Positions 39,759 to 55,306 of a stretch of DNA of 55,306 nt are shown one piece after another. Where the stretch lies: contig JADFYO010000020.1 of NCBI GenBank assembly GCA_015233015.1, forward strand, positions 1 through 55,306, in the 5' to 3' direction. Position 1 is the stretch's first letter, and each line of letters opens with the position of its first letter. The position numbers and the translations under genes are program-made. The stretch is from Nitrospirota bacterium. GTDB lineage: Bacteria; Nitrospirota; Thermodesulfovibrionia; Thermodesulfovibrionales; Magnetobacteriaceae. The notes under the pieces were generated by a model. The model saw only the letters and a program-made list of their open reading frames with translations. It had not been told where the DNA came from and searched no databases.

Positions 39759-39786
39759 TGTACAAAACATGATCATGTTTTGTACA
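39759..39786. promoter_or_regulatory. Perfect 28-bp palindrome, candidate operator
   Basis: Fourteen-base halves TGTACAAAACATGA and TCATGTTTTGTACA are exact inverse complements without a loop. The element ends 60 bases before the ATG chosen for the TPR-CHAT gene and overlaps the nearer start codon candidate. A perfect palindrome of this length is characteristic of a TetR/MarR/LysR-type operator or of an element end. No regulator gene lies adjacent, so the ligand of this site is unknown. Confidence 0.7.
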
Positions 39787-39845
39787 ATACAGGTTGGGAA
39801 TCGAAAATGAGATTTTTTAAAGAATGGCGCCAAGGACGTAACTAT

Positions 39846-42095
39846 ATGAAAGACAGTACCGTTAGGGTTGCTCTATACGTAGTTATTCTGATACTTTTAT
39901 ACACCGGCTCCTCGTGCGGAGATACACTTGGCGACGGCATGAGGGCATACGAACGCGGCGACTTCGCCGGCGCGATAGAAGCATTTGGAGATGTGCTTGC
40001 CGGTTATAAAGAACATGTGAGCGACCCTGTGGCCGAGGCAAATTGTCTGTTGTATCTATCGAAGTCATATCTACATGCCGGCCGTTTCGATAAGGCCCTC
40101 GCATTCTTAGACAGAGTTCCCCCTATCCTCGAAAAATCCGAAGATGCCGGCCTCAAGCAGGAGATGTTAAACCTTTATGGGTTGATTTATATGTCAACCG
40201 GAGATTTTAACAAGGCCAATGAGTATTATGAGAGCGCCTTGCAAATTTCTGAGAACCACGGCATCAGGGCCGAAATACTTAACAACCTTGGAACCCTCCA
40301 TGTGCTGATGAACTCCAGGGACAAGGCACTGGAATATTACGATAACGGGCTGAAGGATATTATCAGCGCCACACTGCACGCGCAAATCCTCATAAACATA
40401 GCCGTTTTAAACACAAGCCTGAAAGATGAACCTCTGGCCGATAAAAAATTAAAAGAGGCATTCAGAATATTTCAGGGCGCTGACGACAGCCATAAGAAAG
40501 TTGAGGGGCTTATTAATATCGCAAGGGCTTACATGTCTATGTCCGGCAAATCAAATAAACATAGTGCCTATGACGCGCTTGATATGGCCCAAACGACGGC
40601 CAATCAGATTGGCGACAACAAGGCCATTCCATATATTTTCATATACAAGAGCAGACTTTACGAAGAAGGAAGGGACTACAAAAGCGCCCTTGTTTTATTA
40701 AGAAAATCCCTGAGTGCCGCTGAAATGTATAATGTCAGGGAATCGGTTTATATCATATACCGGCAGATGGGACGAATTTTAAATAAAACCGGCAAGACTG
40801 ACGAAGCCGTTTCAGCCTATAGAGAGGCCGTGCGCGCAATTGAAGATGTTGGGCTGGACGCGTTTGTAAACTGTGCGCTCTGCGGAGGGATGTTTTTTAA
40901 AACCGAAGTAGAATCAGTATTTTATGAACTAGCCGAGGTCTTAATCGAAAGATCTTCGAAGGCAGGCACCGCCGCCGAACAACAAAAAGACCTTTATGAG
41001 GCCATAGACACGATAGAACAGCTCCGTGCGGCTGAGCTTAAGGATTACTTTAAGGATACCTGCATAGATATTCAAAAGGCCAAAGAATCCCGGCTTGACA
41101 CGGTTGCTAAAAATACCGCCATCCTCTATGTGGTATCTTTTCCTGAGAAGTTGTACGTCTTAGTTAGTTTTCCTTCAGGCATAAAAAAATATACGGTTAA
41201 CATATCTGCCGACGATTACACCAAAGAGGTAGTAACCTTTCGTAAATTTCTTGAAAAACGCACCACTATGCAGTATTTAACACATGGGCAGCGGCTATAT
41301 GACATATTAATAAGGCCTGCGGAGCAGGACTTAGCGCTCAATGAAACAGATACTATTGTGTACATACCTGACAGGGCATTGAGGATGATTCCCCTTGGGG
41401 CATTACATGACGGCAAGGATTTTTTGATAAGAAAATATGCCGTTGCCGGCACAGTCGGGATGTTTTTGACAGACGCGCGTGGTTTCGCAGGAAAAGACTC
41501 AAAAATGCTCGTAACCGCATTAACCGAACCGAGGCAGGGCTACGTGCCGCTGCCCTTTATTTCGGACGAGGTTAAGGGGATAGGACAGGCCTATAATTCA
41601 GATTTACTTATGAATAAGGATTTTGTGGTTCCAAATCTTAAAAATGAATTTAAGGACAAACAATACACGATGCTTCATATGGCGTCTCATGGGGAGGTTA
41701 CGGGAGACGCGGCTAAGGCGTTTATTGTTACATGGGATGGTAAGATGACGATAAACGATCTGGAAACCCAGATAAAAGAGGGGCGCTACAGCGCCAAACC
41801 CATAGAGATACTGGCATTGAGCGCATGTGAGACTGCCGCTGGGGATGAGAAGGCGGCCCTGGGGCTTGCCGGTCTGTCTGTAAAAATGGGGGTCAAGAGC
41901 ACCATTGCATCCCTTTGGAGCGTAAATGACGAGGCGACATCCATGCTGCTGGTGGATTTTTATAAGGAACTGAAAACAGGCGGAGGATTTAAGGCAAAGG
42001 CATTGCAGAGGGCGCAGCTGAACATGCTGGACAACGATAGGTTCAGCCACCCCCTCTACTGGGCACCATTTCTTTTAATAGGGAACTGGTTGTAA
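39846..42095 (+). CDS. TPR-CHAT caspase-like protease
   Basis: The 749-residue protein (ATG at 39846, with AAGGA nine bases upstream) begins with a hydrophobic export or anchor segment ending near a GSSC site, so a lipoprotein or periplasmic location is likely. Residues 30-400 form a stack of TPR repeats (CLLYLSKSYLHAGRFDKALA, LLNLYGLIYMSTGDFNKANE-like units). The C-terminal ~190 residues are a CHAT domain, the caspase-like cysteine protease fold: H615 in LHMASHGEVTG and C661 in ALSACETAAGDEKA, followed by GVKSTIASLWSVNDEAT. Both catalytic residues are present, so it should be an active protease. An in-frame TTG at 39780 would lie inside the palindrome and is less likely. DUF928 and haemagglutinin genes follow on the same strand. 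Confidence 0.92.
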   Translation: MKDSTVRVALYVVILILLYTGSSCGDTLGDGMRAYERGDFAGAIEAFGDVLAGYKEHVSDPVAEANCLLYLSKSYLHAGRFDKALAFLDRVPPILEKSEDAGLKQEMLNLYGLIYMSTGDFNKANEYYESALQISENHGIRAEILNNLGTLHVLMNSRDKALEYYDNGLKDIISATLHAQILINIAVLNTSLKDEPLADKKLKEAFRIFQGADDSHKKVEGLINIARAYMSMSGKSNKHSAYDALDMAQTTANQIGDNKAIPYIFIYKSRLYEEGRDYKSALVLLRKSLSAAEMYNVRESVYIIYRQMGRILNKTGKTDEAVSAYREAVRAIEDVGLDAFVNCALCGGMFFKTEVESVFYELAEVLIERSSKAGTAAEQQKDLYEAIDTIEQLRAAELKDYFKDTCIDIQKAKESRLDTVAKNTAILYVVSFPEKLYVLVSFPSGIKKYTVNISADDYTKEVVTFRKFLEKRTTMQYLTHGQRLYDILIRPAEQDLALNETDTIVYIPDRALRMIPLGALHDGKDFLIRKYAVAGTVGMFLTDARGFAGKDSKMLVTALTEPRQGYVPLPFISDEVKGIGQAYNSDLLMNKDFVVPNLKNEFKDKQYTMLHMASHGEVTGDAAKAFIVTWDGKMTINDLETQIKEGRYSAKPIEILALSACETAAGDEKAALGLAGLSVKMGVKSTIASLWSVNDEATSMLLVDFYKELKTGGGFKAKALQRAQLNMLDNDRFSHPLYWAPFLLIGNWL

Positions 42096-42165
42096 TATCT
42101 ACTGTGCATATATAATAACATCGGTTTAACTTAGCAGCCGAAAATTAATTCTTTGGGAGGCCCAT

Positions 42166-42882
42166 ATGAAAAGTATAGTGATGAGAAAGAGTATATTCGC
42201 ACTGGTTTTGCTGACAGCTGTTATATGTTCACCGTTAATTCTGAATGCCGCGGACGAAGCGAAGGATAAGTCCACCACAGTAATCAAATATAAACCGCCC
42301 ATGCTTGGAGCGCCGAATGTGCGTACAGGGGGTGGAACAAGGGGAAGCAGTGGAGACGCGCTTGAGTTAACGGTTCTCGCACCGGAGCATACGGGACTAA
42401 GTTCAAAGGCTCAGCCCTCTCTTTGCTGGTATATATCGAAGGCGTCAAAATTAAAGATAGAAATCAGTATAAGTGAGACAAAGGCAGCTGTGCCACTTTT
42501 GGAGAAGAACGTAGAAAATCAGGCAAGTGGAATTAACTGTATAAATCTGAAAGAGTTCGGAGTAACGCTTGCAAAGGGAACTGAATATAAGTGGTTTATA
42601 TCTGCGATTGGCAATGAAGGAAACAGGTCGAAGGACATCGTAAGCGGCGGGGCAGTAATGGTTGCCGAACCGTCTAAAGAGCTGGCAGGTAAGCTGTCAA
42701 CTTCAAAAGGCGTAGAGAAAGTTGCCCTGTATGCAGAGGAAGGGTTTTGGTACGACGCGATAGAGGGTATCTCAGATTTAATTAAAGAAGCCCCGGCTGA
42801 TAAAAGTCTAAGAGAAGTAAGGGCGACTTTGTTAGAGCAGGCAGGGTTGAAAGAAGCCGCCAATATCGATAGAAAGATGTAA
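42166..42882 (+). CDS. Secreted DUF928-family protein
   Basis: The 238-residue protein has a signal peptide (KSIFALVLLTAVICSPLILN, cut near AADEA). The mature part begins with the DUF928 hallmark of a basic Pro-rich strand and a Gly-rich turn, IKYKPPMLGAPNVRTGGGTR, followed by LTVLAPEHTGLSSKAQPSLCWYIS and the strand IEISISETKAAVPLLEKNVE. A C-terminal half of helices follows (KGVEKVALYAEEGFWYDAIE). DUF928 genes typically sit beside CHAT-TPR, TpsA haemagglutinin and TpsB genes in cyanobacteria and other phyla. The function is unknown; the protein is probably periplasmic. The start (GTATAGTG context) follows GGGAGG by eight bases. Confidence 0.87.
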   Translation: MKSIVMRKSIFALVLLTAVICSPLILNAADEAKDKSTTVIKYKPPMLGAPNVRTGGGTRGSSGDALELTVLAPEHTGLSSKAQPSLCWYISKASKLKIEISISETKAAVPLLEKNVENQASGINCINLKEFGVTLAKGTEYKWFISAIGNEGNRSKDIVSGGAVMVAEPSKELAGKLSTSKGVEKVALYAEEGFWYDAIEGISDLIKEAPADKSLREVRATLLEQAGLKEAANIDRKM

Positions 42883-42907
42883 ATTTAAACTTGCAGGGAG
42901 GGTGGAT

Positions 42908-43171
42908 ATGTTAACGATAAAAAAGAGCGATGTTGCTGATAGTCTGCTTTTGGAATTGATGGCAGATATGCATGTTGTTAAAGATAAGCTTGCTTATTTT
43001 GAGAAAAAATGCAATATGTCATATGAAGTATTCGAGCAGGCAGTTAAAACCCGAAATGAGGATTATCGGCAGTGGGACGATTATATTGAATGGAAGGCAT
43101 ACAGGCACTTGTTTGAAGATATAAATCGTAAAGTAAGTGATATAAAAAATGCTGATTTTGAAATTAATTAA
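42908..43171 (+). CDS. Small antitoxin-like partner of TumE-type toxin
   Basis: The product, 87 residues from ATG 42908, is entirely helical: LTIKKSDVADSLLLELMADM, KLAYFEKKCNMSYEVFEQAV, then RQWDDYIEWKAYRHLFEDIN. The GMSFEEFE/DYIEWKAY pattern is that of small proteins found next to TumE (DUF6516) toxins, so I call it the antitoxin. GGGAGG lies just upstream; the GTG at 42902 is too close to it. It overlaps the toxin gene by 23 bases, with translational coupling likely. DNA binding is not evident from the sequence. Confidence 0.75.
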   Translation: MLTIKKSDVADSLLLELMADMHVVKDKLAYFEKKCNMSYEVFEQAVKTRNEDYRQWDDYIEWKAYRHLFEDINRKVSDIKNADFEIN

Positions 43172-43499
43172 TGACGCTGACTTTGTAGTATCTTATGAAG
43201 TCCTGGATTACAAGCAATGGGACAGGGGTATGTACTACAAACTCAGTATCGTTTTTAATGACAGCTCTGTGTTGATAGCACGGGAGTATGTCGATGAGCT
43301 TCAACGTGACTATTCTTTTCATTGGCAAGGTTCGGACAATAATATGATCATAAGGTGGGATAACGCTCCTCACTATAAGGAACTTCTGACTTTTCCGCAC
43401 CACAAGCACATGGCGGGCAGGGTTATTGAGAGCCGGGTGGTATCTTTAGAAGACATTTTAAACCAGATCAAAGGGATGTTAAAGGATAACAAGCCATGA
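43149..43499 (+). CDS. TumE-family (DUF6516) toxin
   Basis: The 116-residue product has the family layout: DADFVVSYEVLDYKQWDRGM and YKLSIVFNDSSVLIAREYVD as strands, then YSFHWQGSDNNMIIRWDNAP, followed by the Pro/His-rich LTFPHHKHMAG and a C-terminal helix SLEDILNQIKGML. The WDNAPH...FPHHKH segment is the family signature. TumE-type toxins are small proteins that inhibit growth when expressed without the antitoxin. Its stop overlaps the start of the haemagglutinin gene by four bases (ATGA), so this toxin pair is built into the secretion operon rather than beside it. Confidence 0.82.
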   Translation: MLILKLINDADFVVSYEVLDYKQWDRGMYYKLSIVFNDSSVLIAREYVDELQRDYSFHWQGSDNNMIIRWDNAPHYKELLTFPHHKHMAGRVIESRVVSLEDILNQIKGMLKDNKP

Positions 43500-46400
43500 A
43501 CGGTTTCAGCAAATACGTGATAGGGTTACTATCCTTCTGTCTGATCTCACTGTTTAGCTATTCCGTAGTCACCGCTGCCATCGTAACGGACGGCACTGTG
43601 GGCCAAAGCGGTGCGCTGACCGGCCCTAAGTACATCATACCGGAGTCTTTAGGGACAAAGGCCGGCAACAACCTGTTTCAGAGTTTCAGCATGTTTAATA
43701 TAAATACCAGTGAGAGCGCCACATTTACCGGAGCGTCAACTATAGGAAACATCATAGCCCGCGTGACCGGCGGTTCGTCGTCATCCATAGACGGCATGTT
43801 GAGCTGTAGCATTTCCGGGGCTAATCTCTATTTAATGAATCCTGCGGGTGTGATGTTTGGTAAAAACGCCACACTTGACTTAAAGGGGTCTTTTTATGTG
43901 ACAACCGCCGACTATTTAAAACTCTCTGACGGGGGAAGGTATGACGCAAAGACCCCGTCGAACTCGACATTAACCTCTGCCCCGCCGTCGGCCTTTGGAT
44001 TTCTGACGGGCAATCCCGCCGGTGCAACTGTAACCGGCGCCCTTCTTCAAGTACCCACGGGGAAGACGATTTCCATAGCGGCGGGAGATATTACCATAAC
44101 AAACGGTTACCTCTACGCCCCCGGCGGGCAGATAAATATAGCAAGCGTCGCGTCAACGGGTGAGGCATTAATGTCGTCGTCCGGCATAAATGCCGATGGA
44201 TTTTCATCGCTTGGCAAAATCAGCATAACGCAAACCGACTCAACCCGAAAAACAGTAAACGGCATTACACTTGGCAATCTTGACGTCAGCAACCAGTCGG
44301 GAGGCTCCGGCAGCATTTACATAAGAGGCGGGAAATTTGTTATTGATAATGGCTACATTTTTGCCGATACGTATGGGGATACCGACGGCGGCGGGATTAA
44401 TGTCAACGTAACCGGCGATATGAGCATTACAAATAGCGGGTTGATAGAGGCGGGTACAGCAGGAAAAGGCAATGCCGGCAGTATAAATATTGAAACCAAT
44501 AATTTAAGTCTTACTAGTTCCGGTAACATTAGTACTGCATCCTCCTCAGCTGCAGGCAGCGCCGGTGATATTACTATAAAGGCGTCAGATTCTATTACTA
44601 TAGATGGTTCAAACACAGAAATATATAGTGAAACAGACTACGGTAATGGTCACGCTGGCAGTATTAATATTGAAGGAAAGAATTTAAGTCTTACGAATTC
44701 CGGTGAAATTTTTACCGCAACCTTTGATAGTCCTGGCACCGCCGGCGGCATTTCGATAAAGGCCTCTGATACTATTAAAATAGGCAGTGGAAGTGCAATG
44801 ATATATAGTGCAACAGACTACGGTACAGGCAATGCAGGCGGCATAAATATTGAGACAAATAATTTGACACTTTCTAATACTGGCAGTATTAACACTTCGT
44901 CCATGTATAGTTCAGGAGCCGCTGGTAACATTGAGATAAAGGCTTCAGATACAATTAATATAGATGGTGGAAGTACAGCAATACTTAGTGAAACATTAGG
45001 CCAGGGCAATACCGGCGGCATTAGTATTGAAACAAAAAATTTAAGTCTGACTAATTCTGGTAAGATCAGCACTTTGGTCTTGACGGGAAGCACAGGAAAA
45101 GCTGGCGGCATTACTATAAAGGCGTCTGATACTATTGATTTGGATGGTAATAATACAAGAATATATAGTGGAACATCCGGTGCCGGTAATGCCGGCAATA
45201 TTTATATTCAAACCAATATTCTAAACCTTACTAATTCCGGTCAAATTGGTACTTCGGCGCAGTCAGCAACAAGCACAGGAACCGCCGGCGACGTAGCGAT
45301 ATACTCTTCGGATACTATTAATATAGACGGTGAAAGTGGAATATATAGTCAAACATATGGTAAAGGTCATGCCGGCGATATTAATATTGAAACAAAAGAT
45401 TTAAGTCTTACTAATGACGGTCAAATTACCAATTCGTCCTTGTCGGGAAGTACAGGCAATGCTGGCAGTATTACGATAAAGGCTTCTGATACTATTAAGA
45501 TAGACGGGTATTACGATAACTACTACAGTGGAATATATAGTCGAACATACGGTAAAGGCAATGCCGGCAGTATTTATATTGAAACAAAGAATTTAAATCT
45601 TACTAATTTTGGTGAAATTGATACTTCGGCATATAGCGGAAGCACAGGAAATGCCGGTGATATTGCGATAAAGGCATCGGATACTATTAAGTTAGACACA
45701 GCGGGGATACTTAGTGAAACATTCGGTGCCGGTAGTGCGGGCAGTATTAATATTGAAACAAAGGATTTAAGTTTCACTAATTTTGGTTATATCAGCACTT
45801 CGTCGGCAGGCACAGGCAACGCCGGCAGTATTAAAATAAAGGCGTCAGATACTATTAAGGTAGATGGTTATTACAACTACGGCGTAAGTATTTATTACAG
45901 TGCAATAGACAGTGGAGCTTATGGTGCAGGCAGCGCCGGCAGTATAACAATTGAGACGAAGAATTTAAGTATTACTAATGAAAGTCAAATCAACACTTCG
46001 TCGGCAGGCGCAGGAAGCGCCGGGGACATTACGATAAAGGCATCGGATTCTATTAAGATAGACGGTGAAAGCGGGATATATAGCGGTACATACGGTAAAG
46101 GAAACGCCGGCAGCATTAATATTGAAGCAACAAATTTAAGTCTTACTAATTCTGGTCAAATCAGCACCTCTGCCGCATCGGGAAGTTCGGGGAATGCAGG
46201 CAATATTACGATAAAGGCTTCGGATACCATTAATATTGCCGGCCACTACATTATCGACAACGATGTTTATACAAGTGAGATAGCAAGTCAAACAGCCGGT
46301 ACAGGAAATGCAGGCAATATAAATATTGAAACAAAAAATTTAAGCCTTAATGATGACGCTAAAATTAATACATCTGCTGTGCAGGGAAGCGCGGGTAATG

Positions 46401-47533
46401 CTGGCAGTATTACAATAAAGGCTTCGGATACTGTTAATATATCAGGCTACTACGCCGGCAGCGATGGTCTTTATGCAAGTGAGATAGTTAGTCAAACATA
46501 CGGCAAAGGTGATGCCGGCAGTATTAATATCGACACAAAATATTTAAGTATTACCAATATTGGTGGAATTAATACCTCTGCCCGCGAGGGAAGCACGGGC
46601 AATGGAGGAAGTATTACTATAAAGGCATCGGATTCTATTAATATCTCAGGCTATTACGCTGTCAGTGAGGGTGTTTATTCAACCGGAATACTTAGTGAGA
46701 CATCCGGTAAAGGAAACGCCGGCAGTATTAATATCGAAACAAATAATTTAAGTATTACTAATGACGGGTCAATTAGTACCTCCGCCCGCCTGGGAAGCAA
46801 GGGCAGCGGCGGCAATATTTCAATAAGGGCGTCAGATACTATTAATATTTCCGGTTATTACGACGCCGGCAACAATGGTATCTATCATAGTGGGGTAAGC
46901 AGCGAAACCGCTGGAAGCGGCAATGCCGGAGATATTACGGTTCAGAGCCGTAATCTTTATATTAGTGATTATGGATTAGTTACGGCTCAAAGCAGCGGCA
47001 CAGGCAGCGCCGGCAACATTACGGTTAAAGCATCTGACCTGCTTCAGATGAACAGCGGTTATATAGCGACATCCTCGAAATATACAACAGGGGGCAACAT
47101 TGATATAACCGCTAATGACATACGCCTTTACAATGACAGCGCCATAACCTCAAACGTAAGCAAGGGAAAGGACAAGGGCGGCAACATCACGATTTCGTCT
47201 GGTCTGCTCTGCGTCCTTGACGATAGCGCAATCTCCGCCGATGCGGACATCGGGTATGGCGGTGATATTACAATCAATGCCAGCACAGTGTTCCTCTGGA
47301 ATTTGGATAGGGCGCTGCACGCCTCCTCAACAATCAGCGGGCAAAGTGGGACAATCACTATACACTCACCGCTAACGGACATCTCCGGCTCTATGGTTGC
47401 TCTCACTCCAAGGTACCTGAACGCGGATAAGCTGCTTCCCGAAAGCTGTCAGGCCAGGAGGAAAAGCAAAGGTTCGTTTGTTATCAGAGGCTTGGGAAAT
47501 CTTCCCACGCACAACAGCATGTTTTCGTTTTGA
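43496..47533 (+). CDS. TpsA filamentous haemagglutinin-like exoprotein
   Basis: A 1345-residue two-partner-secretion exoprotein. A signal peptide (LLSFCLISLFSYSVVTAA) is followed by the TPS domain: IVTDGTVGQSGALTGPKYII, SFSMFNINTSESATFTG, and NPAGVMFG, the NPNGI-type motif. Residues about 320-1140 contain thirteen imperfect 57-70-residue repeats of the form GNAGSINIETKNLSLTNSG...GSAGDITIKASDTI, each predicting turns of a right-handed beta-helix. A fourteenth partial copy follows. The C-terminus ends with the conserved cyanobacteria-like cap ESCQARRKSKGSFVIRGLG. No toxin (CdiA-CT), anchor or protease domain is present. TpsB is encoded on the opposite strand at 50401-52116, with the subtilisin between them. 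Confidence 0.93.
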   Translation: MNGFSKYVIGLLSFCLISLFSYSVVTAAIVTDGTVGQSGALTGPKYIIPESLGTKAGNNLFQSFSMFNINTSESATFTGASTIGNIIARVTGGSSSSIDGMLSCSISGANLYLMNPAGVMFGKNATLDLKGSFYVTTADYLKLSDGGRYDAKTPSNSTLTSAPPSAFGFLTGNPAGATVTGALLQVPTGKTISIAAGDITITNGYLYAPGGQINIASVASTGEALMSSSGINADGFSSLGKISITQTDSTRKTVNGITLGNLDVSNQSGGSGSIYIRGGKFVIDNGYIFADTYGDTDGGGINVNVTGDMSITNSGLIEAGTAGKGNAGSINIETNNLSLTSSGNISTASSSAAGSAGDITIKASDSITIDGSNTEIYSETDYGNGHAGSINIEGKNLSLTNSGEIFTATFDSPGTAGGISIKASDTIKIGSGSAMIYSATDYGTGNAGGINIETNNLTLSNTGSINTSSMYSSGAAGNIEIKASDTINIDGGSTAILSETLGQGNTGGISIETKNLSLTNSGKISTLVLTGSTGKAGGITIKASDTIDLDGNNTRIYSGTSGAGNAGNIYIQTNILNLTNSGQIGTSAQSATSTGTAGDVAIYSSDTINIDGESGIYSQTYGKGHAGDINIETKDLSLTNDGQITNSSLSGSTGNAGSITIKASDTIKIDGYYDNYYSGIYSRTYGKGNAGSIYIETKNLNLTNFGEIDTSAYSGSTGNAGDIAIKASDTIKLDTAGILSETFGAGSAGSINIETKDLSFTNFGYISTSSAGTGNAGSIKIKASDTIKVDGYYNYGVSIYYSAIDSGAYGAGSAGSITIETKNLSITNESQINTSSAGAGSAGDITIKASDSIKIDGESGIYSGTYGKGNAGSINIEATNLSLTNSGQISTSAASGSSGNAGNITIKASDTINIAGHYIIDNDVYTSEIASQTAGTGNAGNINIETKNLSLNDDAKINTSAVQGSAGNAGSITIKASDTVNISGYYAGSDGLYASEIVSQTYGKGDAGSINIDTKYLSITNIGGINTSAREGSTGNGGSITIKASDSINISGYYAVSEGVYSTGILSETSGKGNAGSINIETNNLSITNDGSISTSARLGSKGSGGNISIRASDTINISGYYDAGNNGIYHSGVSSETAGSGNAGDITVQSRNLYISDYGLVTAQSSGTGSAGNITVKASDLLQMNSGYIATSSKYTTGGNIDITANDIRLYNDSAITSNVSKGKDKGGNITISSGLLCVLDDSAISADADIGYGGDITINASTVFLWNLDRALHASSTISGQSGTITIHSPLTDISGSMVALTPRYLNADKLLPESCQARRKSKGSFVIRGLGNLPTHNSMFSF
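44461..46920 (+). repeat. Thirteen tandem repeats in the TpsA gene
   Basis: Thirteen consecutive, in-frame units of about 174-205 bases encode the beta-helix repeats. Each begins near GGCAATGCCGGCAGTATTAA and contains ATAAAGGCGTCAGATACTAT-like stretches. Conserved codons are nearly identical between units, while the loop between repeats changes (for example YYDNYYSG, YYAGSDGLYA, YYAVSEGVYS). Identity at DNA level invites recombination and variation in copy number. Confidence 0.85.
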
Positions 47534-47574
47534 TTATGATGATGTGTAATGACCAAAGAAGTATTGAAACTATT

Positions 47575-47790
47575 TCATCTGCCCTGAAGTGCTAAGTCCT
47601 CTAAAGTTATTTTCCTGAACACTTCTTTGTTCCCAACACGCGTTACAGCATCTAAAATCTCTATCCCGGCAATGCGCCCCTCCATGTCGTAATCAACGGC
47701 AATACCCTCTGCCACATGTTCCGTTGTGACCGTAGTCTCTATAAAACGTATATAAAGGGCATCTACTTCCGAATCATAAGTTATTCTCAT
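47575..47790 (-). CDS. DUF2283 family small protein
   Basis: The 71-residue product has the complete DUF2283 pattern: ITYDSEVDALYIRF at the start, TEHVAEGIAVDYDMEGRIAG in the middle, and IEILDAVTRVG near the C-terminus. DUF2283 genes usually travel with DUF4258 genes as a putative toxin-antitoxin pair in which this protein would be the antitoxin; biochemical proof is limited. It shares one base with the upstream DUF4258 stop (TAATG). Confidence 0.88.
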   Translation of the reverse strand: MRITYDSEVDALYIRFIETTVTTEHVAEGIAVDYDMEGRIAGIEILDAVTRVGNKEVFRKITLEDLALQGR

Positions 47791-48059
47791 TACTTCACCT
47801 CTTCGTTAAAATAATAAGCATAGACAGTGATAACAACTATTTCAGTTTCTTCTTCAACGAATACCGGTTTTACCTGCTTATATGAATAATACTTCTTATT
47901 CCATTCGTTCTGGAAATAAAAATTCTTAGTTGCCTGAAGTCTTCCTTTCTTAGCGAATTCCCATGATGAGGCGATAATGGCCTCAAATACCTCTCCCTCT
48001 TCGATCCCTCTATAATACAACTGTTCCCTGGCGTGCATTGATAGTCTAATCGGCTTCAT
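47790..48059 (-). CDS. DUF4258 family protein (RelE-like fold suspected)
   Basis: The 89-residue protein begins IRLSMHAREQLYYRGIEEGE, the DUF4258 start in which a His precedes an arginine-rich helix. EVFEAIIASSWEFAKKGRLQ, VKPVFVEEETEIVVITVYAYYF and a C-terminal acidic tail follow. The strand order resembles RelE/ParE-like toxins, and the partner DUF2283 gene follows with a one-base overlap. It is probably a translation-targeting or related small toxin. It lies between the TpsA gene end and the subtilisin gene, both of which converge on it. Confidence 0.82.
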   Translation of the reverse strand: MKPIRLSMHAREQLYYRGIEEGEVFEAIIASSWEFAKKGRLQATKNFYFQNEWNKKYYSYKQVKPVFVEEETEIVVITVYAYYFNEEVK

Positions 48060-48218
48060 GGTTACTATCTCTATTATAATCGGAAATACATATTTTTGTC
48101 TGAATTAAATTTTCGTACTCTATCCCACAGCATAAAGAACTCTCTGTCGATACACTCCGGGCCTTGATACGAAACGCTGGTTTGACTATTGATGATTTCC
48201 TGAAAATACTGTGATACT

Positions 48219-50351
48219 TTATCTCCAGCTTACCCCGAAAGGGTACCAAGTGCCGTTATAATAAGTGTACATATAACCATCAGTCCAGGCCACAAGAGCT
48301 GCTCCGTTGTTATACCACTGGTAGTAGTACGTTACTGAGCCGGATGTTCCTGCGCCTATGCCGCCGGATGCTGAGCCAAACCATGAAGCATATTGATTAT
48401 AGATGGAGGTAATCTTCGTAGCTGCATAACCAAAAGTTTTCCATGTTATATTTAAACTGGACAACTGGCCATTATAATACACGTACAGATTTCCATCTGT
48501 TCCGGTTACAAGATAAGCGCCATTGGTATATAATTGGTAATAGGCTACCCATGATGTTCCCGTCTGTATGCTCCCTGAAGTGGAGCCGAACCACGAGGCA
48601 TATTGGCTGTAGATTGCGTTAAATGCCGCAGCGGCGGCGTCACTGTCCGGCATGATTGATGATGTAAATGTTACGGTTACGCTTTTTGCGGCTGACATCG
48701 TGATAGTACATTGAGAACCGCTTGTCGAATCACACCCCGACCAACTCGAAAAAGAAGAACCGGAGGTGGCCGCCGCGGTCAGCGTTACAGACGTTCCCGA
48801 TGTATATGATGCCGTGCCGGTGCTGCCGCTCCAGCTGAGGGTTCCGCTTGACGCCGTTACGGTACCGGAACCAGTGCCGGATTTTGTTACACTTAAACTA
48901 TAGGAGGTAACTGTTAACGCGCTTAACGCCGCGTCCACCTGAATCCGGGATTTCGTTATATTATCACGGGCGTCCGTTATTGAAACTCCGGTGCTTGACA
49001 AGGCACTCAGAATATTCGTAACAGACGCTGTTGGCTTCGACTGCTTCAGCACTGCCCAGGCGCCGGTCACATGCGGGGCAGCCATCGAGGTTCCATCCCA
49101 TGTAGCATATTGGCCGTTAGGTACTGACGAAAGAATTGAGGACCCCGGGGCCAGCAAACTTAAAAAACTCGCACTGTTCGAATATGATGCGACCACGTCC
49201 GAACTGTCCGTTGCGCCAACGCTGACAGCCGACGAAATACATCCCGGAAAGGCTATCCCATTTGTATAACCATCATTACCCGAGGAAATAACCGTTGCAA
49301 TGCCGGCGGAACGAAGGTTATCTACAGCCGACTTATAACTGGAATTCTCGTTGTCACAATTAGAAGTGTACTTACCACCGCCAATGCTCATGTTTATGGA
49401 AGCAATCGAATAGGTACTCTTTAAAGCGTAAACCCTTTCCAGCCCTTTGATTTGATCGGAGTCATAAGACAGCACGCAAGGAGTTTTTCCACTGCAACCG
49501 TTCGTACTGTTGTCGTCAAATCGTGAAAACACCTGAATAGCTATAATATTTGCCCCTTTGGCAACACCGGATGATTGGCCGGTATTTTGCCCTGCCGCAA
49601 TACCTGCCACATGCGTTCCATGGTCGCATTTTCCAGATGGACAATTCCCCACATATGGCATCGCACAACCGCTCGATGTTAAGTCAGTTCCTGCGCCCGC
49701 ACAAATAGAAGAGGCGTACGATGCCGGATAGTAAGACGAGTAGCAAGCCTCGGAGACAACCTTACCTGTGAGAATTGGATGCGTTTTATCAACTCCGGTG
49801 TCAAGTATCGCCACTGTGTAACCTGTGCCATCATACCCGCTTGACCATGCGGTAGGGGCGCCGACTTTTGTGATATTCCAATTGACCTGTGTAGGGCGAG
49901 ATAGTTTATCTTCCTCGACAGAGATTACCTCCGCAATGGAAATCAAGGTGTCAAGAGCGTCCCTGTCAACCGTCATTGCGATATGAGGTATGTACTTGTA
50001 CTTGTAATAAGAGATGATATTGACCTGGGAGAGCTGCCCAATTACGGCTTCCTGCGCCCGTGAAATCGCTCTCGTCTGCTCATCGGACTCCACGGAGGAT
50101 AAGCTTCCCATCGGACGAAACGAGACGTCAAGTTTTACGATAACCCTGACAGAACCTTTACTATCTGCCTGCGAGGCCAGTTTTTCATATCCACCCCCGG
50201 ATACTATCTTGCTTTTCGGCGAAGACCGCAGCTCACCCGCAGATACACTTATAGGCACTATCGCGCTAAAGCAAAGGACAGCCAAAAACAACACTGAGAC
50301 TACATGCTTAAACAGTCCCCTACTCCTCATATTCGACATTACTGACACCAT
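48219..50351 (-). CDS. Secreted subtilisin-like serine protease (S8) with C-terminal repeats
   Basis: The 710-residue preproenzyme has a signal peptide (residues 16-38, ending VSVSAG). An inhibitor-I9-type propeptide follows (VRVIVKLDVSFRP; IPHIAMTVDRDALDTLIS), then a full S8 catalytic domain: D184 in AILDTGVDKTHP, H244 in DHGTHVAGIAAG, oxyanion N359 in ISSGNDG and S422 in DGTSMAAPHVTGAW. The tail has an InlB/Listeria-type divergent repeat (SGTGSGTVTASSG to CTITMSAAKSVTVTF) and two ~65-residue repeats starting YNQYASWFGSASG and IYSQYASWFGST. It is probably exported and active. It lies between the TpsA and TpsB genes and could process TpsA or CHAT-linked substrates; that is inference. Confidence 0.93.
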   Translation of the reverse strand: MVSVMSNMRSRGLFKHVVSVLFLAVLCFSAIVPISVSAGELRSSPKSKIVSGGGYEKLASQADSKGSVRVIVKLDVSFRPMGSLSSVESDEQTRAISRAQEAVIGQLSQVNIISYYKYKYIPHIAMTVDRDALDTLISIAEVISVEEDKLSRPTQVNWNITKVGAPTAWSSGYDGTGYTVAILDTGVDKTHPILTGKVVSEACYSSYYPASYASSICAGAGTDLTSSGCAMPYVGNCPSGKCDHGTHVAGIAAGQNTGQSSGVAKGANIIAIQVFSRFDDNSTNGCSGKTPCVLSYDSDQIKGLERVYALKSTYSIASINMSIGGGKYTSNCDNENSSYKSAVDNLRSAGIATVISSGNDGYTNGIAFPGCISSAVSVGATDSSDVVASYSNSASFLSLLAPGSSILSSVPNGQYATWDGTSMAAPHVTGAWAVLKQSKPTASVTNILSALSSTGVSITDARDNITKSRIQVDAALSALTVTSYSLSVTKSGTGSGTVTASSGTLSWSGSTGTASYTSGTSVTLTAAATSGSSFSSWSGCDSTSGSQCTITMSAAKSVTVTFTSSIMPDSDAAAAAFNAIYSQYASWFGSTSGSIQTGTSWVAYYQLYTNGAYLVTGTDGNLYVYYNGQLSSLNITWKTFGYAATKITSIYNQYASWFGSASGGIGAGTSGSVTYYYQWYNNGAALVAWTDGYMYTYYNGTWYPFGVSWR

Positions 50352-50400
50352 GCTACCCCCAACAAAAAAAAATACAAAATCGTGAAACGATTTAACATTT

Positions 50401-52116
50401 TTAAAACACCTGCGTGGTTAACTTGAAATATATGCTTTTGTCCTGCAGGTCTTTATCTGTGACACTTATGTTTCTGAATGGGTGGGCACCGTAGATTTGA
50501 AATAGTATCTTATCAGTTACCGCCCATCTTATTCCAACTCCCGTGCCCGCTATGCCTCTTGGGTCTGGCGTTTCACTTTTTGTATTCCATGAATAGCCAT
50601 AATCAAAAAACGGTACAAGCTGCACTATCTCCGGCCTTGCCCCTGAGCCGTAAACAGGGACGCGAAACTCTAACGAGGAAAAAATACCGTTATCCCTGAC
50701 CAGTACGTTTTGCCTGTATCCCCTGACGCTGTCCATGCCGCCAACTGAGAATTTCTCTAACGGCAACAGGGGGTCTTTCGAATACTGAGCGTCTGTGCGG
50801 AAAACTACCTGGTTTAACGTACCAAAGAGCCGCTCTATCCACTGAAACTGCCCAAGCCACGAGATAAACTTACCGTCCGGGCCGCTTTCGGTCATTGTCG
50901 AGTTAAACGCGTCCACACCCGCGCTTATCGTTGAACGGGCGGCTATCACACGGGTCTGGCTCCTCTGCGACCATTCCTGAAATGCCCTCAGCACGAATAT
51001 ATTTGTCCTGCCGTCGCTTATCCCCTCGGTAAAGGAAAAACTCCGGCCAAGCAGAAATGTCTCAGAAAACCTCAAATCAGCAGTTACCCCAAGGTTGTAC
51101 TCCGTAGCCGTAGTCTTATAAAACGGGCGGAACAGGGTCATGCCTAATGACCTCGCCCGGCTCTTTATATCAAGGTTCTTAAACGGGTCTTCCAGAACGA
51201 TTGTCTCGTTTTGCCTGTAATTTACCTTTAACGTGGTATCGTCAACACTCAGCGGTATCGAATACTCCGCCAACCCGTCCATCAATCCCTTTGTGTATGT
51301 AAAACTCCCGCGTATAACGTCCCCACGTCCGGTCAGGTTCCTGTAGGCGGCAAAGACATCACCGCCGAATGAGCCTATGCTTGGTGAATGGTCATTGCTG
51401 CCTTCGATGATTAGTGTAAATGGAGAGGCCTCCTCCATTGAAACCTTTAACGTGCTTTCACCAGCCCTCAAGCCGGGGATAAGTTCGGCATTCAGCCTCT
51501 GAATCATCGGGTTTTGAAGCATTATTTGAAGGCCCTGCTGAAGTTCGTTCACATTTAAATACGTACCGGTGTAATGTCTCAGCTTATTTCTTATATAGTC
51601 CGGGCTGAATCCTTTATTGCCCTCGACTTCTATGTCCGTAAGCCTGCCCTCGACGGCCACAAGGACTAATTCGCCGTTTTCTACTTTCTGGTCGGGAATT
51701 ACCACGCCGGAATTAATGAAGCCGTGCTTGATGTAATATTCAGTCAGGGCGCGCCGGAGCTGCTCCAGTTCCATATAGCTTATCTCTCTGCCGGTATAAT
51801 TACTTGTTATCTCGCGCAGCTCATCGTCTTTAAAGACCGTATTGCCGGTGATTGTAATCTTATTAATATACACGGTAACCGCTAAACTCAGGCCTTCCTC
51901 TTTTACCTCTGGCAGTTCCAGAAGTGTGATATCCGGGGTGGTCTTTTCAGGTCTCAGTTCGGGGAGAGGAGCTAACTGCATATTTTGTTGAGTTGACGGG
52001 TCAACACTATGTAGAAAATGGTCTGAGTATGTCTCTGCAAATACTATATGCGGCATCATAACAGCTGAAATGAATGAAGATACAACTGCCGCTATTATAG
52101 CTCTTCCCGCTGCCAT
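50401..52116 (-). CDS. TpsB/ShlB-FhaC family outer-membrane transporter
   Basis: The 571-residue protein is the two-partner secretion pore. A signal peptide (residues 4-26) and a linker precede POTRA domains: VYINKITITGNTVFKDDELR, then YIKHGFINSGVVIPDQKVEN and LVAVEGRLTDIEVEGNKGF. A 16-strand barrel follows, ending QIYGAHPFRNIS and FKLTTQVF, with an aromatic C-terminal residue. The barrel carries the VRGY motif in GGMDSVRGYRQN, which marks lid loop L6 and the TPS secretion site. It should export the TpsA protein encoded at 43496-47533. It diverges from the CHASE2 cyclase gene, sharing a 133-base promoter region. Confidence 0.95.
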   Translation of the reverse strand: MAAGRAIIAAVVSSFISAVMMPHIVFAETYSDHFLHSVDPSTQQNMQLAPLPELRPEKTTPDITLLELPEVKEEGLSLAVTVYINKITITGNTVFKDDELREITSNYTGREISYMELEQLRRALTEYYIKHGFINSGVVIPDQKVENGELVLVAVEGRLTDIEVEGNKGFSPDYIRNKLRHYTGTYLNVNELQQGLQIMLQNPMIQRLNAELIPGLRAGESTLKVSMEEASPFTLIIEGSNDHSPSIGSFGGDVFAAYRNLTGRGDVIRGSFTYTKGLMDGLAEYSIPLSVDDTTLKVNYRQNETIVLEDPFKNLDIKSRARSLGMTLFRPFYKTTATEYNLGVTADLRFSETFLLGRSFSFTEGISDGRTNIFVLRAFQEWSQRSQTRVIAARSTISAGVDAFNSTMTESGPDGKFISWLGQFQWIERLFGTLNQVVFRTDAQYSKDPLLPLEKFSVGGMDSVRGYRQNVLVRDNGIFSSLEFRVPVYGSGARPEIVQLVPFFDYGYSWNTKSETPDPRGIAGTGVGIRWAVTDKILFQIYGAHPFRNISVTDKDLQDKSIYFKLTTQVF

Positions 52117-52249
52117 CAGAAACGCCAGACCCCTTTCATGTGTGATAGTATAAAATATAACTCGTGTTCAATACAATATTTATTCGAATTAGGATGGGTT
52201 TAACACCCTGGTCTGGCAGTTTAATTAGTGTTTTATGATATAATCTTCC

Positions 52250-54184
52250 ATGAAACCGATGTTAAAAAGAGCGAAATCGCCGTGTTTAGTCTGCCTTGCC
52301 ATAACGATACTGATATGCGCAACCGTCGTTACCGTACGCAATTACGGGTATCTGCAAATAATCGAACTAGCCGGCGGGGAGTTGGCCGCGTATGACAGAT
52401 TTTTAAAGTTCTCTGTACATGGCTCAAAACCGGACGAAAACGTAATCATCATCTCGATGACTGAAGCGGATATTCACCGCTATGGAAAGTGGCCGATTAC
52501 TGACCAGACAATGGCGGAGCTTATTGAAGGCTTAAGCCAATACAATCCCGGCGTAATTGCAGTGGATATATACAGGGATATCCCCATCACACCCGGCAGC
52601 GATAATCTTACAAATGTTCTCAGAACACTAAACAATGTCGTCATGGTTAAGAAAATCGGAATAGATTCAGAGAATGAAGTATCGGGGCCGTATATGATAG
52701 ACGATCCCGACAGGGTAGGCTTTACTGACTTTCCCGTTGACCCTGACGGTGTAATAAGACGAGGGCTGCTGTTTGCCGACAACGGGACGACGATGTCAAC
52801 ATCGTTTTCGATGCTTATTGCCCAGATGTTTTTAAAGAGTAAGGATATAATGCCACAGCCTGGAACCCCGAATCCCGCTCACATGCGGCTTGGCAATACA
52901 ACCTTCATACCACTTAGAGCTAATGACGGCGGCTATGTCGGCGGCGATATGGCCGGTTATCAATTCCTGCTGAACTTCAGAGGAGGGCAGTTTAACAGAT
53001 ATTCTCTTTACGATATACTGGAGAAAAGGATACCCCCGAACGCCCTGAGCGGAAGGGCTGTTATCATAGGAGTAGAGGCTGTAAGCGTTAAAGACTATTT
53101 CAGTACGCCGGTTAAATCCATACCAGCCACATCTGGTGTAGAGCTTCATGCCTTAGCTGCGAGCCAAATCATCAGGGCAGCCCTTGGGGGAGAGAAACCA
53201 ATGTCCTTTATAGATGAGCGATATAAGTGGACATGGATTTTTATATGGGGAATAGTTGGAGGGGCACTGGGGTTGCGAATACGTTCTTTTGCGAGATTTC
53301 TTGCCCTTTCCGCGGGTGCGGCAGTGATGTTAGTATCGTCGGCCTATGCGGCATTCTCCAGTGGACTATGGATACCGGTTGTGCCGCCTGCCTTGTCGCT
53401 GCTTTTTTCGGCGTCTCTGGTGACGGCATATAAATCATATACTGAGGGCGCTGACAGGGCACAGATTATGCAGCTATTCTCAAGGCACGTTTCAAAAGAT
53501 GTAGCCGAGGCGATATGGAATGACCGTGACAGTTTCCTCTTCAATGGCCGCCCTCGTCCTCTGAAACTTACTGCAACCGTGTTGTTCACCGATTTAAAGG
53601 GTTTTACATCTGTCTCGGAGACGCTTCAACCTCAGCCGTTGATGGACTGGCTTAACGAGTACATGGAGGCGATGGCAAGCATCATAATCAGACACGGAGG
53701 GGTTATAAATAAATACATCGGCGACGCCGTAATGGCCGTATTTGGCGTTCCCATAGCAAGGCAAACGCAGGAGGATATAAGCAAAGATGCGATAAACGCC
53801 GTCACATGCGCCATTGAGATGGGCAGTAAACTCTCACGTCTAAAGGCCGAATGGGCAGCGCGCGGTATGCCCGTTATCGATATGCGGGTTGGAATATATA
53901 CAGGGGAGTTAGTAGCCGGTTCTTTAGGCAGTGCGGAGCGCCTTGAATATACTGTTATTGGCGATACAGTAAATATCGCATCGCGTCTGGAGAGTTTTGA
54001 CAAGCACTACTGCGACCCTGAATTTGCAGACCCAGCCTGCCGCATATTAATCGGCGCCACTACATTTACATACCTCTCCGGGAGGTTCAGGGCAAAAGAG
54101 GCCGGCACAGTGGCTCTAAAGGGCAAAGAGGAGAAGATAACCATCTATCTGATCGGGGGATTTACGCAGCCGCAGCATGGTTAG
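52250..54184 (+). CDS. CHASE2-domain adenylate/guanylate cyclase
   Basis: The 644-residue inner-membrane enzyme has one N-terminal helix (LVCLAITILICATVVTV), a periplasmic CHASE2 sensor domain (about residues 35-320, with VIIISMTEADIHRYGKWPI and LNNVVMVKKIG), and three further helices (328-395). The class III cyclase domain follows, with the ATP/GTP-binding VLFTDLKGFTSVSETLQ and NKYIGDAVMAVFGVP; D448 and D492 are the expected metal ligands. Substrate specificity (cAMP or cGMP) is not certain from the motifs. In cyanobacterial genomes CHASE2 cyclases accompany CHAT/DUF928/TPS genes, as here. The ATG at 52250 has only a weak ribosome binding site; 52259 is an alternative. hicB lies 86 bases downstream on the same strand. 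Confidence 0.93.
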   Translation: MKPMLKRAKSPCLVCLAITILICATVVTVRNYGYLQIIELAGGELAAYDRFLKFSVHGSKPDENVIIISMTEADIHRYGKWPITDQTMAELIEGLSQYNPGVIAVDIYRDIPITPGSDNLTNVLRTLNNVVMVKKIGIDSENEVSGPYMIDDPDRVGFTDFPVDPDGVIRRGLLFADNGTTMSTSFSMLIAQMFLKSKDIMPQPGTPNPAHMRLGNTTFIPLRANDGGYVGGDMAGYQFLLNFRGGQFNRYSLYDILEKRIPPNALSGRAVIIGVEAVSVKDYFSTPVKSIPATSGVELHALAASQIIRAALGGEKPMSFIDERYKWTWIFIWGIVGGALGLRIRSFARFLALSAGAAVMLVSSAYAAFSSGLWIPVVPPALSLLFSASLVTAYKSYTEGADRAQIMQLFSRHVSKDVAEAIWNDRDSFLFNGRPRPLKLTATVLFTDLKGFTSVSETLQPQPLMDWLNEYMEAMASIIIRHGGVINKYIGDAVMAVFGVPIARQTQEDISKDAINAVTCAIEMGSKLSRLKAEWAARGMPVIDMRVGIYTGELVAGSLGSAERLEYTVIGDTVNIASRLESFDKHYCDPEFADPACRILIGATTFTYLSGRFRAKEAGTVALKGKEEKITIYLIGGFTQPQHG

Positions 54185-54269
54185 CGTCAGCCTTTACATG
54201 CTCTTTTCCCACTACAAAGTTACAAATATGCTACACTATACTGATGATCAACAGAGGACAGGAGATGAT

Positions 54270-54494
54270 ATGCGAGAAAAACTGACGGCGGTCTTTCAAA
54301 AATCACCATATGGCTATATTGGATATGTGGAGGAACTCCCGGGCGCCAACACTCAGGGGGCAACACTGGAAGGAGCAAAAACTAATTTTGTTGAGGCTGT
54401 TCAATTGATTCTGGAAACTAACCGTCTAATTGCTGAAAGAGACATTTCAGGCAAAGAAATCATAAAAGAAGATTTTGGTATTGTTACAGTGTGA
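54270..54494 (+). CDS. hicB: HicB antitoxin
   Basis: The 74-residue protein is the partner of the downstream HicA. The start at ATG 54270 has AGGAG four to eight bases before it; the in-frame ATG at 54177 would overlap the cyclase gene. The product has the HicB core: TAVFQKSPYGYIGYVEELPG, then ANTQGATLEGAKTNFVEAV, and a short C-terminal tail without an added DNA-binding domain. The stop overlaps the hicA GTG by four bases. Here the antitoxin precedes the toxin, the reverse of the classic hicAB order. Confidence 0.92.
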   Translation: MREKLTAVFQKSPYGYIGYVEELPGANTQGATLEGAKTNFVEAVQLILETNRLIAERDISGKEIIKEDFGIVTV

Positions 54495-54717: not shown

Positions 54718-55142
54718 CTATTTTTCATTAGGGAATTCAATACGCTCCCATAAGTCTTTTCTGAGTTCTTTAAACGCAGGACATTTTACGCTGACAGTAT
54801 CAGGATTTACTTCTTTGAGTAGCTGGACACCTTCTATCGTTTTTCTATATCTTAAGGCACAACTCCTCGCAAATTTCTCTAAATGTTCCGATATCTTGGG
54901 GTGACAGCTAATTTTTTCCGGCACCGAGATGTATTGAATTTTAGAAATTAATCTGGTGAGACATTCGTGCTTATTATATTTATAAACTTTTTTAAAGCAA
55001 TCAATGTCGGCTACCATCCAGGCCTCTATTTCTTGTATAGCGAAATGATTGCTGTACAAGCCTTTATATTTTAACAGTTTCATGTTTATTTCATTTTCGA
55101 TTGTTTCTTTATTCTCACAATCTAAATCCCTGATAATGAAGG
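54718..55142 (-). pseudogene. DUF4276 family protein, 5' end removed by IS66 element
   Basis: The frame from 55142 to 54718 encodes the C-terminal ~140 residues of a DUF4276 (TOPRIM/OLD-like) protein: PFIIRDLDCENKETIEN with the acidic strand, then HFAIQEIEAWMVADIDCFKK and a helical C-terminal half. The N-terminal glutamate-bearing strand and start codon are missing. Upstream sequence is the end of an IS66-family element, so the native N-terminus was lost or lies beyond the window. The longer open frame to 55257 begins inside the transposon. DUF4276 proteins are often encoded with ATPases in possible defence modules; the partner is not visible. Confidence 0.75.
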
Positions 55143-55306
55143 GTAAGCGTCTAAATAACCCCACCCATATATTTGACGCCAAGGGCATCCCTATCGACAG
55201 ATTGCGGGAGCAGGGATTTGTAATCGTCTTCAGTCTTGGAATATGGCAGTCGTTCAAAGATATAGCGTAAGTATTTATAAGGCTCCAGCCCGTTTGACTT
55301 GGCTGT
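55143..55306. mobile_element. Right end of an IS66-family insertion sequence
   Basis: The element end is GTAAGCGT at 55143-55150, matching the GTAAGCG terminus of IS66 elements. It is followed on the minus strand by the transposase C-terminus. The 8 bases before it (AATGAAGG, 55135-55142) are a candidate target duplication; the other end lies beyond the window and cannot be checked. The insertion interrupts a DUF4276 gene. Confidence 0.8.
55151..55306 (-). CDS. IS66 transposase C-terminus, cut by window edge
   Basis: The last 51 residues of an IS66-family DDE transposase are visible, reading leftward from the window edge to the stop TAG at 55153-55151. The conserved C-terminal element TAKSNGLEPYKYLRYIFERL is present, followed by DDYKSLLPQSV and a short tail. 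It is partial only because the window ends; the remainder of the gene cannot be assessed. Confidence 0.88.
   Translation of the reverse strand, partial: TAKSNGLEPYKYLRYIFERLPYSKTEDDYKSLLPQSVDRDALGVKYMGGVI

Follow-up and report, generated by a model that had tools for sequence, protein, structure and literature searches.

A two-partner secretion locus with a linked CHAT protease in a Nitrospirota bacterium, and a candidate role in retention and release of its exoprotein

The stretch of DNA analysed here (the window) is a contig of 55,306 nucleotides, contig 62 of the 3.78 Mb draft genome of a Nitrospirota bacterium, and at positions 39780-54184 it holds a locus that places the genes of a secreted exoprotein and its predicted translocator beside those of a caspase-like protease and a putative signalling protein. 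The gene order is CHAT-TPR protease (+), DUF928 protein (+), TumE pair (+), TpsA exoprotein (+), DUF2283 pair (-), S8 protease (-), TpsB translocator (-) and CHASE2-cyclase (+). A first-pass annotation made from the sequence had proposed that CHAT-TPR, DUF928, TpsA, S8, TpsB and CHASE2-cyclase genes occur together here, and this is borne out: all six families exceed their own Pfam cut-offs within the locus. The closest named relatives are the Nitrospirae bins nDJH8bin13 (locus L147) and nDJH13bin15 (locus L158), with a CHAT identity of 81%.

The CHAT-TPR gene (39780..42095, + strand) is an open reading frame (ORF) of 771 residues that encodes TPRs and a CHAT domain (PF12770, 2.9e-49, residues 503-769). 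The intact His/Cys pair and the export signal read in it at first pass are present, as His637 and Cys683 and as an N-terminal hydrophobic segment with a best 12-residue Kyte-Doolittle mean of 3.0, and export is predicted. The mechanical ORF starts at 39780, and because of the alignment with relatives we place the true start probably inside the first ~25 codons, just ahead of the hydrophobic segment. NCBIfam matches of this protein are far below the cut-offs, and the PADLOC matches of the window CHAT and S8 proteins are to general TPR, BovA, subtilase and IetS models. The TpsA gene (43496..47533, + strand) encodes the expected exoprotein of 1345 residues, with a TPS domain (PF05860, 2.8e-36; TIGR01901, 1.2e-18) and a repeat region, and the TpsB gene (50401..52116, - strand) encodes a predicted outer-membrane translocator with POTRA (POTRA_2, PF08479, 2e-23) and barrel (ShlB, PF03865, 4.4e-25) domains. 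With a TPS-domain TpsA and a linked POTRA/barrel TpsB recognised by Pfam, the locus has the genes of two-partner (type Vb) secretion, and by their domains the two proteins are predicted to form a secretion pair. The remaining two families are represented by a DUF928 protein of 238 residues (42166..42882, + strand; 8.2e-32) and by a CHASE2 sensor joined to a class III nucleotide cyclase (52250..54184, + strand; PF05226, 7.4e-58, residues 24-338; Guanylate_cyc PF00211, 1.8e-25, residues 442-634).

Not all genes of the locus appear to belong to the system. Upstream of TpsA lie a TumE-type toxin gene (PF20126, 2e-21) and its partner, two overlapping ORFs at 42902..43499 (+ strand), and downstream of it lie a DUF2283 gene (PF10049, 3e-17) and its partner (47575..48059, - strand) and the gene of a secreted S8 (subtilisin) protease (48219..50351, - strand; PF00082, 6.9e-35). 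The first-pass annotation had called two embedded toxin pairs; the TumE assignment is clear, with an 89-residue partner that has no Pfam match, and the other pair consists of the DUF2283 protein and an 89-residue partner, again with no Pfam match, so that three of these small genes flanking TpsA have either no Pfam match or the DUF2283 match only. In L158, which is a full locus, DUF928 and TpsA are separated by 10 bases and TpsA and TpsB by 21 bases, and L147 likewise has 10 bases between DUF928 and TpsA. The 10-base gap is the site of the window's TumE pair and the 21-base gap of L158 that of its S8 gene and DUF2283 pair, and for this reason all three look like insertions in the window. We therefore consider it highly improbable that the system is the full set first proposed, in which the S8 protease and the toxin pairs would function as well. 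These genes do all lie inside the window locus, the S8 gene stands beside TpsA in a few other members, and passages of PMC8263021 and PMC6070651 describe a Bordetella surface subtilisin, SphB1, that processes the TpsA protein FhaB; but L158 leaves no room for S8 or for either small-gene pair, and S8 occurs in 2 of 79 loci fetched on CHAT and in 8 loci, window included, in a search with a profile seeded with the window S8. The S8 protease and the toxin pairs are thus not supported as parts of a general system, and S8 is better described as an occasional accessory.

The association of the other families was followed in a phylum sample of 198 Nitrospirota genomes and in 79 loci from a CHAT-alignment scan of named genomes. 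The two sets overlap, so their counts are kept separate and are not summed, and counts pooled over loci (partners, dyad, export segment, CHASE2 motifs) include some near-copies. Among the 198 genomes, DUF928 is found in 41, the TPS domain in 68, CHAT in at least 71 and CHASE2 in at least 133. At least 49 of 55 DUF928 matches start no more than 10 kb from a CHAT match, in at least 37 of the 41 DUF928 genomes, both lower bounds since the weakest CHAT matches are omitted. The 79 loci, fetched on CHAT alone, have an ORF with the TpsA tail described below in 54 cases, a TPS domain in 50, DUF928 in 42, TpsB in 38 and CHASE2 in 34, and at least one partner in 72. The commonest order in 60 stretches chosen on DUF928, CHAT or TPS matches is TpsA-TpsB-CHAT-(CHASE2)-DUF928, and further orders exist. 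Cyanobacteria, in which the first-pass annotation placed CHAT, DUF928, TpsA, TpsB and CHASE2 genes together, agree: all 14 plasmid records that match DUF928 are cyanobacterial, and the surrounding stretches have CHAT in 13, CHASE2 in 11 and a TPS domain in 7. The fullest plasmid locus, in Pseudanabaena sp. ABRG5-3, encodes ShlB, CHASE2, filamentous hemagglutinin, CHAT and DUF928 proteins consecutively. The association is nonetheless wider than had been stated. In a CHAT tree of 81 rows, with the midpoint root as drawn, 20 cyanobacterial rows fall on one side and Nitrospirota, Thermodesulfobacteriota, Pseudomonadota, Myxococcota, Campylobacterota, Methylomirabilota, Verrucomicrobiota and SAR324 on the other. 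On these counts the co-occurrence is far beyond chance, and judged by gene content the core is TpsA, CHAT and DUF928, often with TpsB and CHASE2, recurring across several phyla.

The CHAT proteins of these loci have the residues of an active protease. His633, His637 and Cys683 are invariant in 26 aligned CHATs, and in a larger set of 148 rows, 4 of them gapped, H637 is present in 143 and C683 in all 144 rows with a residue there, the exception being a Gln in L084. We judge it improbable for this reason that CHAT serves TpsA secretion as a TPR chaperone or scaffold and that its catalysis is irrelevant, even though the TPR part is large and a plasmid protein of Calothrix sp. 336/3 (L137) has two POTRA matches preceding its TPR-CHAT part, POTRA being the client-binding site of TpsB according to passages of PMC5422565. 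A hydrophobic segment lies in the first 90 residues of 89 of 105 CHATs, compared with 8 of 315 internal windows, and several of the 16 CHATs without one are cut by contig ends or have apparently wrong starts; CHAT is therefore probably exported. The window genome holds a second, weaker CHAT match (5.8e-13) at G000:C93:23548-24252 (L002), with one in-frame TGA.

Comparison of C-termini revealed a common TpsA ending, roughly LL..xC.AR.....SSF...GR.gLP..P, which no Pfam or NCBIfam model matches in the proteins scanned. In the window it lies at 47375..47530 (+ strand; ...LLPESCQARRKSKGSFVIRGLGNLPTHNSMFSF-end), in a short form with a single cysteine, and scores 1.9e-18 with a tail profile of which it is itself a row. 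Such a profile splits the TpsA proteins into those at 36 bits or more and those at 1.7 bits or less, many of the scored proteins being its own rows. A profile from Nitrospira-like rows alone finds outsiders at 4 to 31 bits, and one from 11 outsiders recovers 56 of the 58 Nitrospira-like rows at E 10, their scores running from 0.4 to 35.6 bits; one of these 58 rows (L115) is a spurious chance pattern match and was left out of later analyses. Because the cross-trained profiles recover the other group at low to moderate bits, we regard the tail motif as real but divergent. Against PDB sequences the tail profile gave one chance match and no TpsA, a weak test in which C-terminal coverage of the solved TpsA chains was not checked. 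One cyanobacterial TpsA gene (L136:12567-18134) is apparently interrupted by an IS630 transposase gene and has the tail on its downstream piece.

The tail tracks CHAT. A 29-row tail profile has matches in 43 of the 198 genomes, strong ones (E 7e-11 or better) in 42, and all 42 have a CHAT at most 20 kb from the tail or at most 10 kb from DUF928. One genome, G102, has such a CHAT on a 4.7-kb contig and is tail-less. Among the 68 TPS-positive genomes, and counting CHAT among the matches listed, 42 have both tail and CHAT, none has a tail alone, 4 (G037, G067, G104 and G110) have CHAT alone and 22 have neither; the Fisher p of 3.7e-14 overstates the association because the genomes are related. 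Of 81 strong tail matches (two weak ones, G171:C21 at 8.9e-4 and G132:C36 at 0.0037, are outside this number), 70 have a listed CHAT no more than 20 kb away; the other 11 do not, yet are in module-bearing genomes, as would be expected if one protease had several substrates. One of the 11 is in the window genome itself (L226:3-2054, contig 105), a second TpsA C-terminal part with a tail nearly identical to the window's, and contig 19 of the same genome has a TpsA N-terminal part (L227:145-1476); both may be parts of additional TpsA genes that have no adjoining CHAT.

Most tails also have a distinctive cysteine pattern. The 112 distinct C-termini that bear the tail divide into 98 long ones, with 45 or more residues past the tail cysteine, and 14 short ones, the window's included. 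A second cysteine is present in 97 of the 98 long tails, within the last 8 residues in 91, and is absent from all 14 short ones, which may point to two modes of retention. A cysteine in the last 8 residues is found in 1 of 23 complete tail-less control TpsA proteins (the control comprised 40 genes, 10 of which run off their stretch, leaving 30 real C-termini, 7 with the tail and 23 without; in 19 of the 40, which lacked a TPS-profile match, the longest ORF was used instead). Such cysteines could also belong to a tail that is a mere structural cap or disulfide anchor of TpsA, with CHAT, DUF928 and CHASE2 forming a separate, non-cutting sensing unit in the periplasm whose regulation is shared with the adhesin. 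Passages of PMC5422565 describe C-terminal disulfide anchors of TpsA proteins, tail conservation is no higher than that of the preceding residues, CHASE2 and DUF928 occur without CHAT in stretch L133, and an MtxA-CHASE2 pair is known from passages of PMC4439547. We nevertheless find this account rather doubtful, since phylum genomes without CHAT have no strong tail, the CHAT dyad is nearly invariant, and the tail is kept where TpsA and CHAT are fused, which is unexpected for a C-terminal cap or anchor.

These fusions join TPS domain, tail, TPRs and CHAT in a single protein and span three phylum-level groups: L135 on an Acaryochloris marina plasmid, L180, L181 and L214 in Desulfobacterales and relatives, and L201 in SAR324. 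L183 and L196 likewise have tail and CHAT in a single ORF, with no TPS domain detected. At six fusion junctions 6 to 31 residues separate the end of the tail match from the start of the TPR-CHAT match, and no new signal peptide was found, by eye, at those six or at the L135 junction. The fusions suggest that CHAT is tied to TpsA and to the periplasm. In a model of the L201 junction the TPRs and CHAT have high confidence and the tail stretch has a predicted local distance difference test score (pLDDT) of 34-39 between ordered domains. In L135, L180, L181, L201 and L214 the CHAT domain is C-terminal on a TPS protein, the position of a CdiA toxin, and CHAT could accordingly be seen as a protease toxin delivered to neighbouring cells in the style of contact-dependent inhibition (CDI). 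This seems to us quite unlikely: most CHATs are encoded by a gene of their own and usually have a hydrophobic N-terminus, the domain is conserved and not variable, its partners are sensors, and the Pfam scan of the window gave no recognisable immunity gene. Other candidate fusions are weaker. An apparent TpsB-CHAT protein (L149) was rejected, as its junction has an X residue, after which come a start and a segment resembling a signal peptide, and it most likely represents two genes; a CHASE2-DUF928 fusion (L218) also has a signal-peptide-like segment at the junction; and in a CHAT-CHASE2 protein (L140) the CHAT part is weak (5.9e-14). Downstream of the Acaryochloris fusion (L135:21363-27184) lie two toxin-activating lysine-acyltransferase genes and the gene of a large calcium-binding protein.

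The AlphaFold2 model of the window DUF928 protein (mean pLDDT 86) has a hydrophobic N-terminus, an Ig/FN3-like sandwich at residues 68-166 and TPR-like helices at 171-237. Its best conserved block among those compared lies ahead of the sandwich: residues 42-60, with the motif Y-x-PP-x4-P-x8-R-G (YKPPMLGAPNVRTGGGTRG; 42289..42345, + strand), have a mean column information of 2.43 bits over 42 rows, versus 2.07 for the Ig part, 1.96 for the TPR part, 1.30 for residues 1-40 and 1.18 for linker 61-67. The best solved match of the model is the C-terminal domain of MtxA (Z 10.8, root-mean-square deviation 4.2, 153 residues; Foldseek E 2e-5), the next chain having a Z of 7.0. A search of PDB sequences with a profile of the 42 DUF928 rows brings up no MtxA chain at E 1. 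Of 42 loci with DUF928, 26 also have CHASE2, versus 8 of 37 loci without DUF928, and DUF928 may be a periplasmic partner of CHASE2. In the open-access literature searched, the one paper naming DUF928 (PMC5587647) goes no further, in its relevant passages, than a CHASE2 neighbour and an acid-stress response. Two further DUF928 proteins were noted. One, in a genome of the window's family (L073:9453-10214), has no CHAT or TPS nearby and is accompanied by an NlpC/P60-like gene, a 725-residue gene without a Pfam match and methyltransferase/glycosyltransferase genes, with similar ORF sizes in a second genome (L074); the other, from Planktothrix (L142:9074-9919), repeats a GGGTR motif at its extreme C-terminus (...PGREQGGGTR).

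The window CHASE2 protein fits a receptor cyclase, with a CHASE2 sensor and a class III cyclase that has the three catalytic motifs FTDLKGFT, NKYIGDAVMA and GDTVNIASRL. The lysine in NKYIGDA, we presume, suggests adenylate cyclase specificity. The cyclase motif patterns are complete in just 10 of 59 CHASE2 ORFs, and 10 other CHASE2 proteins comprise 5 with a cyclase output, 4 with a kinase-type ATPase and 1 with none recognised; a CHASE2 protein of the kinase type is also present in L139. The second messenger is not constant, since the CHASE2 output varies.

Taken together, these observations suggest that the window locus is one copy of a widespread two-partner secretion module with a dedicated caspase-fold protease, in which CHAT would control retention and release by cutting the TpsA tail, a reading to which we give about an even chance. 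TpsA would cross the outer membrane N-terminus first, its tail remaining at the periplasmic mouth of TpsB, where in many members a disulfide loop from the tail cysteine to the near-end cysteine would hold it. CHAT, exported via its own signal or carried behind TpsA, would recognise the tail and cut in or near it, so that the surface protein is released or re-anchored. DUF928 would be an Ig-TPR adaptor that, together with the periplasmic domain of CHASE2, monitors tail and protease; CHASE2 would relay their state inward through a cyclase in the window and a kinase in other members. The earlier idea of an extracytoplasmic module linking TpsA, a protease and signalling is thus supported by linkage over several phyla, by likely export signals on most CHATs, by the fusions and by a tail that tracks CHAT; what did not hold is a constant second messenger. 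In the open-access literature searched we found no description of such a module, and nothing joining CHAT with two-partner secretion or with CHASE2. A broader proposal, which we offer tentatively, is that these CHATs process C-terminal signals, possibly as sortase-like transpeptidases, in a large and so far unrecognised class of two-partner secretion systems; the tail would be a general sorting signal common to several TpsA proteins of one genome, and DUF928 and CHASE2 would read its processing across the membrane.

Several observations weigh against the retention-release reading. The association has exceptions: in four genomes (G062, G083, G094 and G129) DUF928 has no listed CHAT within 10 kb, 7 of the 79 CHAT loci are partnerless (four are below 9 kb, but L175, L197 and L212 span 18-22 kb), CHASE2 is unseen in 45 of the 79 (27 of the 53 that are 14 kb or longer), and TpsB usually lies outside the cyanobacterial stretch, as 1 of the 14 plasmid stretches has it. 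The pairing of tail and CHAT is a comparison within the phylum genomes. The window's own tail is short and divergent, with one cysteine, and a Nitrospira-like profile that omits it gives it 8.1 bits (E 0.013); with that kind of profile the window's relative L080 scores -0.5 bits. The alignment columns of the tail show no invariant residue as a cleavage site, and the tail arginine, once a candidate, was dropped as its column varies. An exceptional conservation of the tail was likewise abandoned, pairwise identity being 0.30 compared with 0.35 in the preceding 120 residues (61 rows). Finally, the output of the L201 model, confined to confidence and secondary structure, gives no sign of the tail docking on CHAT.

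In gene content the locus is a variant form of two-partner secretion that has a protease of its own, and is not a Lap, Craspase or CDI system, because the defining genes of those systems were not found in it. By analogy, the closest described logic appears to be CdrA-LapG-LapD: as the relevant passages of PMC5422565 and PMC4694147 describe, the tail of CdrA, a TpsA of P. aeruginosa, stays periplasmic and is cut by the cysteine protease LapG, which is tied to nucleotide signalling. The same three roles would be present here, filled by unrelated parts. LapG is transglutaminase-like, whereas CHAT has a caspase fold; LapD retains LapG when it binds cyclic di-GMP inside the cell, whereas we take CHASE2 to be a sensor with a cyclase or kinase output; and no LapG-type or GGDEF/EAL Pfam match was found among the ten locus proteins, the set scanned for these. 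A variant of the Lap logic built from other parts is described for Desulfovibrio in passages of PMC13090378. Stepwise regulated proteolysis of a TpsA C-terminal part is also described for Bordetella FhaB-FhaC (passages of PMC8263021), a subtilisin included (passages of PMC5422565), but DegP, CtpA and SphB1 belong to other protease families, and those passages mention no CHAT, DUF928 or CHASE2. In HMW1 and HxuA a C-terminal disulfide loop locks TpsA in TpsB (passages of PMC5422565, which mention no dedicated protease). The paired tail cysteines of the module resemble this anchor, with a putative disulfide; the second cysteine usually closes a stretch of at least 45 residues, a spacing not compared with that of HMW1.

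As proteins, the module CHATs resemble the TPR-CHAT protease Csx29 of Craspase and separase, in which TPRs likewise precede a caspase-like domain with His/Cys; Csx29 is the best solved fold match of the L201 homologue model, and separase is among the next. Csx29 cuts a loop of Csx30 in which, according to passages of PMC10028731, no single Csx30 residue is essential. It is RNA-activated and CRISPR-linked, and separase is eukaryotic, whereas the module CHAT is associated with TpsA and is probably an exported protein; a Pfam scan of 20 window proteins, which covered all ten of the locus, gave no Cas match (Cas7-11/gRAMP, Csx30). HetF of Anabaena also combines a CHAT domain, TPRs and a transmembrane segment (passages of PMC8406250), but is linked to the divisome and to heterocysts, has another domain order and other partners, and is not connected with TpsA in those passages. 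MtxA of Magnetospirillum has a signal peptide and an Ig-like plus TPR domain, the same fold as the DUF928 model, and in magnetotactic bacteria its gene is followed by that of a CHASE2-adenylate cyclase (passages of PMC4439547); CHAT is absent from that text. Unlike a CDI protein, the window TpsA has no variable C-terminal toxin domain: Pfam gives the TPS domain only, and its end is the conserved tail. A known sortase-type protease, which we take to be a caspase-like enzyme of clan CD, similarly strips a conserved C-terminal signal from secreted proteins in the source passages compared, but it serves another secretion system and its signal is a folded C-terminal domain.

The tail makes the association sharp and testable, as it gives a caspase relative both a candidate substrate and a candidate site of action. 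If the retention-release reading is correct, it would add a third control of filamentous surface-protein retention beside LapG and DegP/CtpA/SphB1, with a reach that includes nitrifiers, sulfate reducers and phototrophs; both DUF928 and CHAT-TPR proteins of this type are recurrent in cyanobacteria and Nitrospira. Were the tail a general sorting signal, exported bacterial caspase relatives would act in surface display and not in cell death or defence. Beyond the locus, the window continues with a short ORF (54177-54494) whose UPF0150 match is below threshold, adjoining the gene of a DUF4276 protein (54718-55257; PF14103, 2.8e-14).

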